NCBI GenBank assembly: GCA_903844155.1
Contig: CAIMSU010000203.1
Coordinates: 1-35,338, forward strand
Length of the DNA stretch: 35,338 nucleotides
Direction: 5' to 3'
Origin: an uncultured Pseudomonadota bacterium
GTDB taxonomy: Bacteria; Myxococcota_A; UBA796; SXON01
In this document: positions 12,907-19,187 of the stretch, in pieces
Layout of the letters: every line of letters begins with the position of its first letter
Position numbering within the stretch: position 1 is the first letter of the stretch
Program-made: the position numbers and the translations under genes
Notes under the pieces: model-generated
Told to the model about the DNA's origin: nothing
Seen by the model: only the letters and a program-made list of their open reading frames with translations
The model's database searches: none

Positions 12907-13512
12907 TCAAGCCATCGCGCGCTGACGGGCCGGGCGGGCCCCACAGCGCTCGGCGTAGGCGACGAGGAGGGGCTCGTCATCGAGCATCCCCTGCCCCTTC
13001 GCCCAGATCAACAGGCCCGACATCAGCAGGTCGCAGGCTGAGAACGCATCGCCGAGCAGGTAGGGCTTGCTGGTCAACTCCGCGCGGATCGGCGGCAGGA
13101 GCGTGGCGAACTTTGCGCGGGCGGCAGCGACCAACGCCGGGTTCTGCTCGGCAGCGGGCAGGCGGCTGTCGCGAAAGACGGCGTAGACCTCGGGCTCCAG
13201 TGTTACCTGCGTGTAGAAACACCACTGGTAGAACCGGCCACGTTGCCCGCTCGGCGGGATGAACGCCGCGCCATCCGGGACCCGGCCGTACGCGTCCGCG
13301 AGGTGGACGACGATGGCGTGGCTCTCCATCAGCACCGTGCCGTCGTCCTGGACGAGCGCGGGCACCTTCAGCAGTGGATGCGGGTTTTTCGCGGGGTCGC
13401 GGTGCTCGCCGGTCCGCATGTCGAGCACGATGCACTCGTAGGGAAGACCGAGCTCCTCGAGCATCCAGCGCACCCGACTGCCGCGCGAGAACTTGTTGAA
13501 GTAGAGCTTCAT
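12907..13512 (-). CDS. Glutathione S-transferase family protein
   Basis: Protein of 201 residues with the two-domain GST plan. The thioredoxin-fold half (1-80) starts MKLYFNKFSRGSRVRWMLEE, with Ser9 or Ser12 as the likely glutathione-contacting residue. It includes the cis-Pro motif LLKVPALVQDDG and ESHAIVVHLADAYG. The all-helical half (90-201) has the N-capping/hydrophobic staple region KPYLLGDAFSACDLLMSGLLIWA. The start ATG is 52 bp from the divergent mvaD start. The substrate cannot be inferred. It leads a two-gene unit with a rhodanese. Confidence 0.88.
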   Translation of the reverse strand: MKLYFNKFSRGSRVRWMLEELGLPYECIVLDMRTGEHRDPAKNPHPLLKVPALVQDDGTVLMESHAIVVHLADAYGRVPDGAAFIPPSGQRGRFYQWCFYTQVTLEPEVYAVFRDSRLPAAEQNPALVAAARAKFATLLPPIRAELTSKPYLLGDAFSACDLLMSGLLIWAKGQGMLDDEPLLVAYAERCGARPARQRAMA

Positions 13513-13522
13513 GCCCGGCTCA

Positions 13523-13566
13523 CTAACCCGGCAGGCAGCGGATCCGGGGGTTAGCCGACCCCGGAT
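13523..13566. promoter_or_regulatory. Two overlapping inverted repeats in the gst/mvaD divergent gap
   Basis: CTAACCC (13523-13529) pairs with GGGTTAG (13548-13554). ATCCGGGG (13542-13549) pairs perfectly with CCCCGGAT (13559-13566), whose last two bases are the first two of the mvaD ATG. The two share bases 13548-13549, so both cannot form together. They could be operator sites or alternative RNA folds; only the pairing itself is observed. Confidence 0.45.
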
Positions 13567-14557
13567 GCCTCCTCGTGCCGCCACCGCGATCGCGCACCCG
13601 AACATCGCGCTCTGCAAGTACTGGGGCAAGCGGGACGCAGCCTTGAACCTGCCGAGTACGCCGAGCCTCTCGCTCACGCTGGCGCCGTTCCACACGCGGA
13701 CGACGGTTGCCTGGGGCGTGGAGGCAGACAGCGTCTGGTTCAACGGCGTGGCGAATACGGGCGTAGAAGCCCACAAGATCCTCGCCACCCTCGACCGGAT
13801 GACGGAGGCGACGGGCGCTGGGCCACGCCCTCCCTGCCGCGTGGAAACGCGGAACGACTTTCCCACAGCGGCGGGGCTTGCGTCCAGCGCGTCTGGCTTC
13901 GCTGCGTTGGTGGTCGCGGCGAATCGGGCGTCGGGGCTGGACTTGTCGGCGGAGGCGCTGGCGGTCCAGGCGCGTCGCGGGTCGGGCAGCGCCACCCGGT
14001 CGCTGCAGGGCGGCTGGGTGGAGTGGCCGCTCGGCGAGCGCGACGACGGTGCTGACAGCTACGGCCGCCAGCTCGCCCCCGCGTCGCACTGGGACGTGCG
14101 GATGCTCGTTGTGCTCGTTCGTGCAGGCAAGAAGGCGATCGGCTCGACCGAGGCGATGAACCACACAATGCGGACGAGCCCTTACTACCCGGCCTGGGTC
14201 GCCGGGGCCCCGGGCGACGTGGAGGAGGCGCGGACGGCGGTGCTGGCGCGCGATCTCGAGCGGCTGGGTGCGGTCACCGAGCGCTCGGCGTTGCGCATGC
14301 ACGCCTCGATGATGGCGGCGGATCCGGCGGTGGTGTACTGGAAACCGGAGACCTTGCTGGCGCTCGACGTGGTGAAACAGGCGCGAGCCGCGGGGCTCGG
14401 CGGCTGGGCGACGATGGACGCGGGGCCGAACGTGAAGGTGCTTTGCGGCGCAGCCGATGCTGAGGGGCTCGCAGCGCGGTTGGCCGAGGCGGGGCTCGCC
14501 GTCCAGATCCTCGCCCCAGGTGGCCCGGCCTGCGTCGTGGACGACACCGGCCCGTGA
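13565..14557 (+). CDS. mvaD: Diphosphomevalonate decarboxylase
   Basis: Catalyses the ATP-dependent decarboxylation of mevalonate 5-diphosphate to isopentenyl diphosphate, last step of the mevalonate pathway, in the cytoplasm. The 330 residues match the family length. Seen motifs: HPNIALCKYWGKRD (11-24, substrate site), PTAAGLASSASGFAAL (100-115, GHMP phosphate-binding loop), RRGSGSATRSLQGGWVEW (137-154, family signature) and DAGPNVK with catalytic Asp285. The ATG at 13565 is chosen because the conserved start follows directly; an in-frame ATG at 13511 overlaps the divergent GST start. It heads the plus-strand run to 19187, and its stop overlaps the kinase GTG (GTGA). Confidence 0.95.
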   Translation: MPPRAATAIAHPNIALCKYWGKRDAALNLPSTPSLSLTLAPFHTRTTVAWGVEADSVWFNGVANTGVEAHKILATLDRMTEATGAGPRPPCRVETRNDFPTAAGLASSASGFAALVVAANRASGLDLSAEALAVQARRGSGSATRSLQGGWVEWPLGERDDGADSYGRQLAPASHWDVRMLVVLVRAGKKAIGSTEAMNHTMRTSPYYPAWVAGAPGDVEEARTAVLARDLERLGAVTERSALRMHASMMAADPAVVYWKPETLLALDVVKQARAAGLGGWATMDAGPNVKVLCGAADAEGLAARLAEAGLAVQILAPGGPACVVDDTGP

Positions 14558-15924
14558 GCGGGCTCATCCCTTCCTCCGTCCCGGCCACCTGGCGCGCGCC
14601 TGGAAAGCTGGTGCTACTTGGCGAATATGCCGTTCTCGACGGCGCAGGGGCCATCGTCGCCGCGGTCGACCATGGCGTTGACTGTCGGCGTTCTCCCGGG
14701 CGTCTCGGCTGGTCGACGCCAGGGGACGACCGGTTCGTGCGCCACGTCCTGCAAACCCTGCCCCTGGAGATCGGCCAGTTCGCCTTCACCGACTGGAACC
14801 CCGTCCAACTCCAGGGGGCCAAGGCGGGGTTTGGCGGGTCTGCAGCCTCCGTGGTCGCCGCAGTCCTGGCAGCCGGGCGCCCGCCGCTGAGCGCGTTCGA
14901 TGTGCACCGGGCGGTGCAGGGTGGCGGCTCCGGCGTCGACGTCTATGCCAGCCTCAACGGCGGGGTTCGCCGGGTTCCCGACGGCAAGCGCGTGCCGATG
15001 CCCCCGTTTGCCGTGGTCTGGAGCGGCCGCAGCGCGTTGACCGGGCCGCGGCTCAAGCAGTTCGAGGCGTGGGGGCGCGCCGACCCGCGCGCAAAACGGG
15101 CGTTCGTGCGGGCGTCCCGCGCGCTCGTGGACGGCTTCGGAGGCAACCCCGTCGGGGCGACGCGGGAGGCCTGGGGGCTCTTGAGGGCGATGGCCCGGGC
15201 CGCGCGCCTGGAGTACGAGACCCCGGAGCTGGTCGCGCTCGCAGCCCTCGCTGAGAGCCTCGGCGGTGCCGGGAAGCCGAGCGGGGCCGGCGGGGGTGAC
15301 ATCGCGGTTTCGGCGTTTGTAGACAGCGAGCGGCGCGACGCGTACACGGCGCGTTGTGCGGACCTCGGCTTCACCGTCATCCCCTGCGCCATCGCCGAGC
15401 CCGCCTGCCTCTACGCGATGCACGGCCCGCGGATCGACCTCGTTCCGTTCACTCCGGAGCGGCTGGTCCTGGCGCTCGAGGACAGGCCCGGCCTCGCCCG
15501 CAGCCTCGGGGCGTCCATTCCGGCGAGCTGGCCGCAGCCCGACTACGCTGCTGTGATGCGGGTCCTCGCCGAGCGATGGTCGCTGGACGCTCGGGAGGCC
15601 GACTGGGCGTGGCTGGTGGTCGACGCGCCGACTGATGGCCCGCGGCGCCTCGTGGGAGAGATCGGCGGAAAGGTGGGACCAAGCCGGAAAGGCGAGCTGG
15701 AGTTCGGCTACGCCATCATCCCGGAGCGCCGGGGCGAAGGGCTGGCGAAGGAGGCGGCAGCGGTGTTCGCAGCGTGGGCCCGAGGGCAGCCGGGGGTGAA
15801 GGTGCTGACGGCAGAGTGCGTCGAGAGCAACCTGGCCTCACGCGCAGTGCTGAGATCGGTGGGGCTCTCGGAGGTTGGGGCGAGGATGGAAGCGGGGAAC
15901 CGGCTGATCCGGCTGCGGGGGTGA
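14554..15924 (+). CDS. Phosphomevalonate kinase fused to a GNAT acetyltransferase domain
   Basis: Protein of 456 residues with two parts. Residues 1-288 are a GHMP kinase of phosphomevalonate kinase type: APGKLVLLGEYAVLDG (15-30), AGFGGSAASVVAA (91-103), GSGVDVYAS (125-133) and PSGAGGGD (242-249). It would phosphorylate mevalonate 5-phosphate. Residues about 289-456 look like a RimJ/RimL-type GNAT domain: GPRIDLVPFTPERL at its start, FGYAIIPERRGEGLAKEA (384-401) as the acetyl-CoA loop, then ECVESNLASRAVLRSVGL (421-438). Met289 (ATG 15418) would be a natural start for a separate acetyltransferase, but no stop codon intervenes. The start GTG overlaps the mvaD stop. Fusion of these activities is unusual; the acetyl acceptor is unknown. 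Confidence 0.88.
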   Translation: MSGLIPSSVPATWRAPGKLVLLGEYAVLDGAGAIVAAVDHGVDCRRSPGRLGWSTPGDDRFVRHVLQTLPLEIGQFAFTDWNPVQLQGAKAGFGGSAASVVAAVLAAGRPPLSAFDVHRAVQGGGSGVDVYASLNGGVRRVPDGKRVPMPPFAVVWSGRSALTGPRLKQFEAWGRADPRAKRAFVRASRALVDGFGGNPVGATREAWGLLRAMARAARLEYETPELVALAALAESLGGAGKPSGAGGGDIAVSAFVDSERRDAYTARCADLGFTVIPCAIAEPACLYAMHGPRIDLVPFTPERLVLALEDRPGLARSLGASIPASWPQPDYAAVMRVLAERWSLDAREADWAWLVVDAPTDGPRRLVGEIGGKVGPSRKGELEFGYAIIPERRGEGLAKEAAAVFAAWARGQPGVKVLTAECVESNLASRAVLRSVGLSEVGARMEAGNRLIRLRG

Positions 15925-15971: not shown

Positions 15972-16328
15972 ATGACCACGCTCTACTGGAAGTCCACCTG
16001 CACGACGTGCCGGGAGGTCCGCTCGGCGCTCAAGGCGCGTCCCGGCGGCGCCGACCTCGCCGAGAAGAACTACAGCAAGGACCCGCTGACCGAGGCGGAC
16101 GTCCGGGCCATCGTCGCCGCGAGCGACGTGCCGACCTTGCTGAATGCGACCCATGAGACGGCGAAGGCGCGCGGTTGGAAGGCAGCCCCGCCCGACGCCG
16201 CCACTTTCATCGCCGCCGCGTTCGTCGAGCCGAACCTGCTTCGTCGTCCAATCCTGCTGGTCGACACGCCCGCCGGACCCCGCGCCTGGGTCCATCGCGC
16301 GTGCCTCGACGCGCCGGTCGGACGGTGA
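15972..16328 (+). CDS. ArsC/Spx-family thioredoxin-fold protein
   Basis: Protein of 118 residues resembling the ArsC/Spx/YffB family. It opens MTTLYWKSTCTTCREVRSAL with Cys10 and Cys13 as a CxxC pair, continues with EKNYSKDPLTEADV, and has RRPILLVDTPAG near the C-terminus (the conserved RRP segment). Relatives include glutaredoxin-dependent arsenate reductases and Spx-type regulators. No arsenic-resistance genes are nearby, so a thiol-redox role is a safer statement than arsenate reduction. The ATG lies 47 bp after the PMK-GNAT gene, and the stop overlaps the next start (GTGA), coupling it to the copper monooxygenase lipoprotein. Confidence 0.85.
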   Translation: MTTLYWKSTCTTCREVRSALKARPGGADLAEKNYSKDPLTEADVRAIVAASDVPTLLNATHETAKARGWKAAPPDAATFIAAAFVEPNLLRRPILLVDTPAGPRAWVHRACLDAPVGR

Positions 16329-17551
16329 TCCACACCCCAACCGGCCTCGCCGGCCTGCTCGTCGCCAGCGCCCTCGTCGGCTGTCAGGCCGCTGCGCCCG
16401 CAAACGTCGGCGTCACCTACTACAAGGACGTGCGGCCGATCCTCGACAACAACTGCGCGCGTTGCCACACCGCCAACGGCATCGCCCCGAGCTTCGACGA
16501 CCCCGCCGTGGCCGTAGCCGAGGCGCCCAACATGGTCGCCCGCACCGAAGCCGGCGACATGCCGCCGCCCGCTCCCCTCCCCGGCTGCCGCGCGTACGAA
16601 GACGACGACAGCTACTTCCTCACCGACGCGGACAAGGCGACGATCGCGGCGTGGTCGGACGCTGGCGCGCCGCTCGGCGACGTCACTGAAGCCCCGGCGC
16701 CCTGGGCCGCCCGCACCATCGCGCCGTTTGACATCGAGATGCACGCCTCAGCGCCGTACAGCCCAACGTTCGCCGACGGCGAGAACGATTATCGCTGCTT
16801 TGAGCTTGATCTCAACAACGACGCCGCCGTCTACGTCACCGGGTTCGAGGCCCTCGTCGACAACCCGAAGATCGTGCATCACGTCGTCCTGTTCAACAGC
16901 AACGGCGTCAACCTCGGGGACACCACGGGCGGCGATCCGCACGAGGGCTTCTCCTGCGGCGGTTTTGGCAACAGCGGCTGGGATTTTGTCAGCGGCTGGG
17001 CGCCAGGCGGCGAGCCGATCGCCTTTCCGGACGGGCTCGGGCTCAAGCTCAAGCAGGGCACCCAGCTCGTGCTGCAGATGCACTACTACAACAGCTTCGA
17101 AGGGGCGGATCTGGAGCAGGACCAGTCCGGCTATGGGCTGACGACGTCCTCGTCCGTCTCCAACCAGGTCTACCAGATCCCGGTCGGCACCTACGACTTC
17201 ACCATCCCCGCGAACGACGCCGCGTACTCGTCCAGCTTCGTGTTCCCGTGGACCTACGGCGACTACCAGATCCTCGGCGTATTTCCTCACATGCACACGC
17301 GCGGCAGCGGGTTCCAGTACGAGATCGCGCACGCGGACGCATCCCGCACCTGCCTCGTCGACATGAACCAATGGAGCTTCCACAACCAGGTCACAGCGCT
17401 CTACGACGAGCCCGCCACGATCACCGCGGGCGACGCTGTGAGCATGACATGTACCTGGGACAACGCGGGGAATCCGAACGACCTGGTGTGGGGTGAGGGC
17501 ACCGGGGACGAGATGTGCTTTGGGTTCACGTACGCGGCGAAGGTCCGGTAG
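16325..17551 (+). CDS. Cytochrome c/copper type II monooxygenase-like lipoprotein
   Basis: Protein of 408 residues. The lipobox LVGC (Cys20) predicts a lipoprotein exposed outside the cytoplasm. Residues 33-120 form a short cytochrome c-like domain with the heme-attachment motif CARCH (44-48) and a possible distal Met in GDMPPP. Residues about 130-408 match the peptidylglycine/dopamine beta-monooxygenase fold. All six copper ligands have candidates: His185/His186 (VHHVVLF) and His253 (LQMHYYN) for one copper; His322/His324 (PHMHTRG) and Met397 (DEMCFGF) for the other. The heme could supply electrons. The substrate is unknown. The GTG overlaps the ArsC-like stop, and mevalonate kinase follows 3 bp later. 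Confidence 0.88.
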   Translation: MIHTPTGLAGLLVASALVGCQAAAPANVGVTYYKDVRPILDNNCARCHTANGIAPSFDDPAVAVAEAPNMVARTEAGDMPPPAPLPGCRAYEDDDSYFLTDADKATIAAWSDAGAPLGDVTEAPAPWAARTIAPFDIEMHASAPYSPTFADGENDYRCFELDLNNDAAVYVTGFEALVDNPKIVHHVVLFNSNGVNLGDTTGGDPHEGFSCGGFGNSGWDFVSGWAPGGEPIAFPDGLGLKLKQGTQLVLQMHYYNSFEGADLEQDQSGYGLTTSSSVSNQVYQIPVGTYDFTIPANDAAYSSSFVFPWTYGDYQILGVFPHMHTRGSGFQYEIAHADASRTCLVDMNQWSFHNQVTALYDEPATITAGDAVSMTCTWDNAGNPNDLVWGEGTGDEMCFGFTYAAKVR

Positions 17552-17554
17552 CCA

Positions 17555-18511
17555 GTGCTGTCCGAATCGGGCCCATTCGTCGGCCAGGCGCCCGGCAAGC
17601 TGATCCTCTGCGGCGAGCACGCGGTCGTTGACGGACACTCGGCGATCGCCGCGGCGATCCCCCGGTTCACGACGGTCACGCTCCGGCCGCGCCCGGGCCC
17701 GAGCACCCTCGCCGAAGCGCCCCACCGGCTCGTCACCGACGACCCGCGCCTGCTCCCCGCATTGCTGACCGTGCTGCCGGCTGAGGGCCTGGAGATCGGC
17801 ATCACCAGCGAACTTCCGATCGGCTGCGGCCTCGGGTCCTCCGCGGCGTTGGCGATCGCGTCGCTACGGGCGTTGGCGGCGATGGAAGGACGAACCATGG
17901 GTTTCGACGAGCTGCACGCCCGCGGCTTTGCGGTCGAGAGGGCGTTCCACGGCACGCCCTCGGGCGTCGACCACGCCGTGAGCGCGCTTGGGGGCGTGGT
18001 GCGGTACCGACGGGAGCGGGGGGGCGACGGGGCGACGATCGCAAGGATCGAGGCGCTGAAGCTGGAAGTTCCGCTGTCGCTTGTGCTCGTCAACACGGGG
18101 ACGCCGAGCCGGACGACAGCGGAGATGGTCGCGGGCGTGCGAGCGCGCGGCTGTGCGAAGGAGCTCGCTGCCATCGGCGTGATCGTCGAAGGGGTCGCCA
18201 GGCACCTCGGTGGCGACGGCGACGTGACGGCGATTGGACGGCTGCTCGACGCCAACCACACGTTGCTCCAGGCCATCGGGGTGAGCACGCCGGCGTTGGA
18301 CCGGGCTTGCGCGGTCATGCGGTCCGCCGGTGCGCTCGGCGCCAAGCTGGCGGGTGCGGGTGGCGGAGGGGTGGCGTTCGGGCTGTGCGCGCCCTGGAGC
18401 CACGAGACCATCCTCGCAAGCGTCCGGGACGCCGGCTTTTCGGCGACGGACTCGTTTTTGTGCACGGTCGGTCACGTCTCCACCGCTGGCAGCACGGGCG
18501 CTTTCGGATAG
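17555..18511 (+). CDS. mvk: Mevalonate kinase
   Basis: GHMP kinase of 318 residues that phosphorylates mevalonate with ATP. Motif 1 APGKLILCGEHAVVDG (12-27), motif 2 PIGCGLGSSAALAIA (88-102), the GTPSGVDHAV segment (133-142, catalytic Asp139) and motif 3 KLAGAGGGGVAF (264-275) are all present. They fit mevalonate kinase better than other GHMP members, and context agrees: mvaD and phosphomevalonate kinase lie upstream. It starts at GTG 3 bp after the copper monooxygenase gene. With those two enzymes it completes mevalonate-to-IPP conversion. Orthologues range from about 300 to 400 residues, so this is a short, bacterial-type form. Confidence 0.92.
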   Translation: MLSESGPFVGQAPGKLILCGEHAVVDGHSAIAAAIPRFTTVTLRPRPGPSTLAEAPHRLVTDDPRLLPALLTVLPAEGLEIGITSELPIGCGLGSSAALAIASLRALAAMEGRTMGFDELHARGFAVERAFHGTPSGVDHAVSALGGVVRYRRERGGDGATIARIEALKLEVPLSLVLVNTGTPSRTTAEMVAGVRARGCAKELAAIGVIVEGVARHLGGDGDVTAIGRLLDANHTLLQAIGVSTPALDRACAVMRSAGALGAKLAGAGGGGVAFGLCAPWSHETILASVRDAGFSATDSFLCTVGHVSTAGSTGAFG

Positions 18512-18521
18512 CCCCCGCGCC

Positions 18522-19187
18522 ATGCTGAAGAAAATCCTCGCCCTCCCCGTCCGCCTCGCCAGTCGCGTTGCCGCAACCATCATGGGCCGCAACAGCGCGC
18601 CTCCGGCCGACCCGCCGCCTCCCCCGCGTCGCGCGACGCGCCCCAAGGCCCCGCCGCCACCCAGGGCTGCGGCCGAGGACGAGGGTCAGGATCACGGCCA
18701 CTCCCACGATCACGGCCATTCCCACGACCACGGCGCGCCTGCCCCTGTCGCCCCGGCCGCGCCAGTCGTCGACCACGGCCACTCCCACGACCACGGCGAG
18801 CCCGCGCCCGTCACGCCCGCCCCGGTCGCCGACCACGGCCACTCCCACGACCACGGCGAGGCTGCGGAGGCTGCCACGCCCGTGGAGAAGCCCGCCAAAA
18901 AGGCCGCGCCGAAGAAGAAGACCGCCGTCTCCGTCCGCTCGGAGGAGACGCCGAACCCCAACGCGCGGAAGTACGTGGTCGGGCAGAAGGTCGTGGAGAA
19001 GGGCTCGCTCTCGTTCAACACCGCAGCCGCTGCCGCCGATCACCCGCTTGGAGCCGCCATCTTCGCGGTCCGTGGCGTCGCCAGCGTGTTTGCCGTGAAC
19101 GATTTCGTGACCGTCATCAAGACCGCGGACGCCGACTGGAACAAGCTTGACGCCGCGCTGATCGCCGCCATCGCCGCCGCGGTCTGA
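18522..19187 (+). CDS. His-rich protein with a stand-alone Nfu N-terminal domain
   Basis: Protein of 221 residues. Residues 1-24 are hydrophobic and basic (MLKKILALPVRLASRVAATI), possibly a membrane-associating helix. Residues 25-50 are Pro-rich. Residues 57-112 hold three His clusters built on DHGHSHDHG, a likely Zn/Ni/Co/Cu-binding region; a Lys/Ala-rich linker follows. Residues 141-221 match the Nfu/NifU N-terminal domain (EETPNPNARKYVVG; ADHPLGAAIFAVRGVASVFAVNDFVTV). The CxxC Fe-S scaffold domain of true Nfu proteins is absent. It starts 10 bp after mevalonate kinase and is probably the last gene of the unit. Metal storage or delivery is plausible but unproven. Confidence 0.8.
   Translation: MLKKILALPVRLASRVAATIMGRNSAPPADPPPPPRRATRPKAPPPPRAAAEDEGQDHGHSHDHGHSHDHGAPAPVAPAAPVVDHGHSHDHGEPAPVTPAPVADHGHSHDHGEAAEAATPVEKPAKKAAPKKKTAVSVRSEETPNPNARKYVVGQKVVEKGSLSFNTAAAAADHPLGAAIFAVRGVASVFAVNDFVTVIKTADADWNKLDAALIAAIAAAV
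18691..18860 (+). repeat. Direct repeats encoding His-rich clusters
   Basis: A 30-bp segment starting GACCACGGCC occurs identically at 18771-18800 and 18831-18860. A related longer version lies at about 18691-18732. Each encodes DHGHSHDHG. Near-identity at DNA level points to recent duplication inside the gene. Confidence 0.85.

Follow-up and report, generated by a model that had tools for sequence, protein, structure and literature searches.

The window (that is, the whole stretch of 35,338 nucleotides that was analysed) comes from an uncultured myxobacterium and contains, among the genes of the mevalonate pathway, a single open reading frame that runs unbroken from GTG to TGA over 456 codons and encodes a phosphomevalonate kinase (PMK) followed by a GNAT acetyltransferase. 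The features on which the argument rests are as follows.

13511–14557, + strand: mvaD, diphosphomevalonate decarboxylase (TIGR01240, 262.9 bits, cut-off 171.35)
14554–15924, + strand: fused PMK::GNAT gene, 456 amino acids; the GTG start overlaps the mvaD stop (GTGA motif)
14587–15411, + strand: GHMP kinase domain of phosphomevalonate-kinase type, residues ~12–286 (family matches, motifs)
15412–15423, + strand: junction of ~4 residues (287–290), with no conserved internal start codon
15424–15921, + strand: full-length GNAT domain of RimJ/RimL type (PF13302), residues ~291–456 (Pfam match, alignment)
15972–16328, + strand: small protein of the ArsC family
16175–17551, + strand: copper type II monooxygenase-like protein; the real start is probably within this frame
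17555–18511, + strand: mevalonate kinase (TIGR00549, 194.1 bits, cut-off 163.05)

The gene directly upstream of the fusion, in the same operon, is mvaD, the true start of which is probably near 13577. As the overlap with the mvaD stop (that is, an (A/G)TGA motif) recurs in all five members of the genus, the fused gene belongs to the mevalonate operon and is probably translationally coupled to mvaD. Two genes, for the ArsC-family protein and the copper type II monooxygenase-like protein, separate the fusion from mevalonate kinase, and each was found at this position in four of the five genus members. Separately, an Nfu_N-domain protein encoded 3′ of mevalonate kinase (18522–19187, +) carries a long His/Asp-rich tract (HGHSHDHG) ahead of Nfu_N; similar tracts occur at the same place in 5/5 genus members and possibly bind metal.

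The two halves of the fused protein

The sequence-only reading of this DNA described a GHMP phosphomevalonate kinase continuing in frame into a RimJ/RimL-type acetyltransferase with an intact acetyl-CoA loop, and this description is borne out: the frame is open, Pfam finds both domains and the loop reads RGEGLA. In the kinase half, GHMP_kinases_N matches residues 90–137 (26.3 bits versus a cut-off of 22.3) and GHMP_kinases_C matches residues 209–255 narrowly under its cut-off (19.0 versus 21). The top curated family is the phosphomevalonate kinase family TIGR01220 (E = 6.5e-12), with a score (45.2 bits versus a cut-off of 165.7) so far under the threshold that, unlike the curated members of that family, the kinase half is to be read as a distant relative, and it is from the motifs and the setting in the operon that its substrate is assigned. 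Both are shared with the bacterial phosphomevalonate kinases of TIGR01220 type (for example, the Streptococcus pneumoniae enzyme (1k47 and 3gon) and Lin0012 (3k17), the latter being the nearest solved structure), which are the best NCBIfam and PDB matches and have the GHMP motifs and the mvaD–PMK operon in common with the window. The kinase half contains the GHMP motifs with the catalytic Asp and the GGAGKxSGAGGGD motif, which here reads K241-PSGAGGG-D249. Residues K18, S96, D129, K241, S243 and D249, the functional roles of which are read from the GHMP family in general, are invariant in 5/5 of the fused proteins, and no fewer than 34 of 35 sister proteins have them too. In the alignment, the kinase half ends at ~283–286, the same place at which the sister PMKs end; neither these nor the matched PDB chains have a C-terminal GNAT, whereas the window protein carries one.

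The GNAT half begins at about residue 291, where free-standing GNATs start, and aligns with them from the first strand to the end. Acetyltransf_3 (PF13302) matches residues 325–438 (E = 5.5e-17, 63.2 bits versus a gathering cut-off of 25.4), and the full-length domain, the CoA pyrophosphate loop (Q/R-x-x-G-x-G/A) and the N-x-A-S-x-x-V-L signature are all held in common with PF13302 GNATs of the RimJ/RimL type; among free-standing proteins of the phylum, even the nearest relatives found lie far off (E ~1e-19). On these features, the C-terminal half would be expected to bind acetyl-CoA and to acetylate an amine acceptor.

Distribution and origin of the fusion

The fusion is present in 5/5 genomes of the genus examined, which are five separate, fragmented metagenome bins (four of them the public bins KTt_bin-1053, Baikal-deep-G128, HRS-HS13-bin-116 and Ki3-D2_bin-0965), at a protein identity of 64–66% and with no stop or frameshift. 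One record (L043, CALQBK020000066.1) is titled Bifidobacterium breve, yet groups with the fused myxobacterial genus; the title of this bin is probably a mislabel. A stop or frameshift near residue 288, which the sequence-only reading had named as the observation that would speak against a fusion, is absent from every genus member, and a stop is present there in other genera. Across the family and order, PMK matches outside the genus end near residue 284, and in 35/35 unfused order relatives inspected the frame closes within a short tail past the kinase end. A PMK match is present in 117 phylum genomes, and it extends through the GNAT in the five of this genus only. A pattern scan of genome contigs likewise returned its four other members only, although its patterns were built from this genus and it therefore says little on independent PMK–GNAT fusions in other phyla. 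As far as searched, the fusion thus appears confined to the genus, and no description of a PMK–GNAT fusion was found in the open-licence literature searched; the earlier remark was that such a pairing is not known to be established.

How the two domains came together can be approached through the sister operons. In most sisters the gene order is mevalonate kinase–mvaD–PMK, usually then fni (type-2 IPP isomerase, a name that we assign from reading of the sequence and gene position rather than from a family scan), which lies downstream of PMK in most of the 35 unfused order relatives. In the fused genus, mevalonate kinase is downstream of the fusion rather than upstream of mvaD, and fni is on another contig or ~50 kb away; HMG-CoA reductase, which shares a contig with PMK in several family genomes, is on other contigs. 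Loss of a stop between neighbouring genes, one of the two possibilities that the sequence-only reading suggested, does not simply account for the fusion: with a profile built from this GNAT and its relatives in the phylum, no relative was found near PMK (4–18 kb) in any of the 35 unfused order relatives, where fni is the usual neighbour, and the operon has been rearranged. In this search, the pair of separate genes that had been proposed as a check in sisters did not turn up for this GNAT, and we set aside stop loss between ancestral neighbours as unsupported. Searches for a donor gave only distant matches, both in 377 phylum genomes and in plasmids (30% identity), and a profile search found no close relative of the GNAT half elsewhere in the family.

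In a tree of the PMK domain, the fused proteins form one clade (support 100/99) that adjoins an unfused genus (g6), the joint fork having support of 95/82. Given this clade, the lack of a relative of this GNAT near PMK in the sisters and the operon change on the same branch, the simplest reading is that the fusion arose once, on the stem of the genus, along with the break-up of the operon. Most likely, an ancestral mevalonate kinase–mvaD–PMK–fni operon would have suffered a break at the 3′ terminus of PMK, to which a GNAT gene of other origin was joined in frame; an equally compatible route is that a GNAT gene may have been inserted behind PMK first and the stop lost later. Judged from these comparisons of sequence, the fusion is real, of single origin and genus-specific, and joins two known families.

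Use of the fused protein and the role of the acetyltransferase

DXP reductoisomerase was not found in 22/22 family genomes by a search that was positive in 10/14 control genomes, and HMG-CoA reductase is present in 21/22. Most genomes of another genus of the same family (g3; for example, L133 and L134) have two or three HMG-CoA reductase matches, and the others have one. A second PMK homologue was not found in the genus, each member giving one PMK match at the search level used. As the downstream decarboxylase is present in the genus, and neither DXP reductoisomerase nor a second PMK homologue is detectable there, the fused protein should be the working PMK, and the kinase half would run the essential step from phosphomevalonate and ATP to diphosphomevalonate. 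Phosphorylation of 5-phosphomevalonate by this half is, we infer, well founded by context, and one would expect the fusion to be essential as the sole PMK, unless a non-homologous PMK exists. The dN/dS ratios, which are rough because dS is near saturation (~0.8–1.3), are 0.17–0.26 for the PMK part and 0.26–0.47 for the GNAT part, indicating that both halves are under purifying selection and that the GNAT is less constrained.

We therefore regard the protein, with reasonable confidence, as a putative bifunctional enzyme, the product of genes that fused once, on the stem of this myxobacterial genus. Whether its two activities are chemically independent, and just tethered and co-expressed, we would put at an even chance. 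At a pLDDT of 59, the structure model is too weak to judge domain contacts; in comparison with the PDB it re-found mevalonate and phosphomevalonate kinases, and GNATs weakly.

A regulatory role for the GNAT is the stronger of the alternatives, yet we consider it rather unlikely. In such a fusion, the GNAT would acetylate a lysine of PMK or of a mevalonate-pathway partner, such that high acetyl-CoA alters flux, much as RibT acts on RibH. The sequence-only reading had suggested that the fusion may tie isoprenoid flux to acetyl-CoA status, a link that we regard as conjecture. A regulatory role would fit with a GNAT that is fused to and co-expressed with the enzymes of an acetyl-CoA-fed pathway, and RibT is a precedent for a GNAT of a biosynthetic operon that acetylates a pathway enzyme (PMC9048828). 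However, no acceptor lysine came to light, sequence change is faster in the GNAT half than in PMK, and the fusion is limited to one genus, the sisters of which run the same pathway without it. Acetylation of PMK or of a neighbouring pathway enzyme, taken by itself, seems to us a minority prospect, and its fuller form, in which the acetylation occurs in cis and one protein both senses acetyl-CoA and sets isoprenoid flux, is more doubtful again.

Somewhat less probable than a regulatory role is that the GNAT is a captured passenger or structural domain, which has lost catalysis or is kept only to stabilize PMK or its oligomer. The higher dN/dS of the GNAT would agree with this, as would the last position of the CoA loop, which is A in 3/5 genus members and C in 2/5, but the residues of the GNAT core do not vary between lineages whose domains are 54–70% identical, and the ratio is well under 1. 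We reject as highly improbable both a fault in the assembly and the production of two proteins from a single message through an internal start: the junction is common to five separate bins, and although the window copy has an ATG at residue 289, the other four members lack it and none of the start codon positions around the junction is common to all five, which argues against a separately translated GNAT.

Comparison with known systems

As an example of gene fusion within an essential pathway, this one is clean and datable, and sister genera without the fusion are at hand for comparison. If the GNAT acts on the pathway, the fusion would link acetyl-CoA directly to isoprenoid synthesis; if it does not, it would be an example of a stranger domain riding on an essential enzyme. 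A similar layout, with an N-terminal kinase and a C-terminal acetyltransferase in one protein, is found in the bifunctional N-acetylglutamate synthase-kinase (NAGS-K) of arginine synthesis in Xanthomonas (PMC1865377). The NAGS-K kinase has the amino-acid kinase fold, whereas that of the window is a GHMP kinase and not an amino-acid kinase, and the activities of NAGS-K are consecutive steps of one pathway, whereas no consecutive acetylation step is known for the PMK fusion. RibT of Bacillus subtilis, which acetylates RibH, an enzyme of its own riboflavin operon (PMC9048828), is likewise a GNAT tied to a biosynthetic operon; it is, however, encoded by a separate, unfused gene and serves another pathway, whereas the GNAT of the window is fused to PMK. 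Fusion of a GHMP kinase to another enzyme is reported for Fkp, a bifunctional fucokinase/GDP-fucose pyrophosphorylase (PMC11982464), in which the partner is a nucleotidyltransferase that works on the product of the kinase, whereas the partner in the window is a GNAT.
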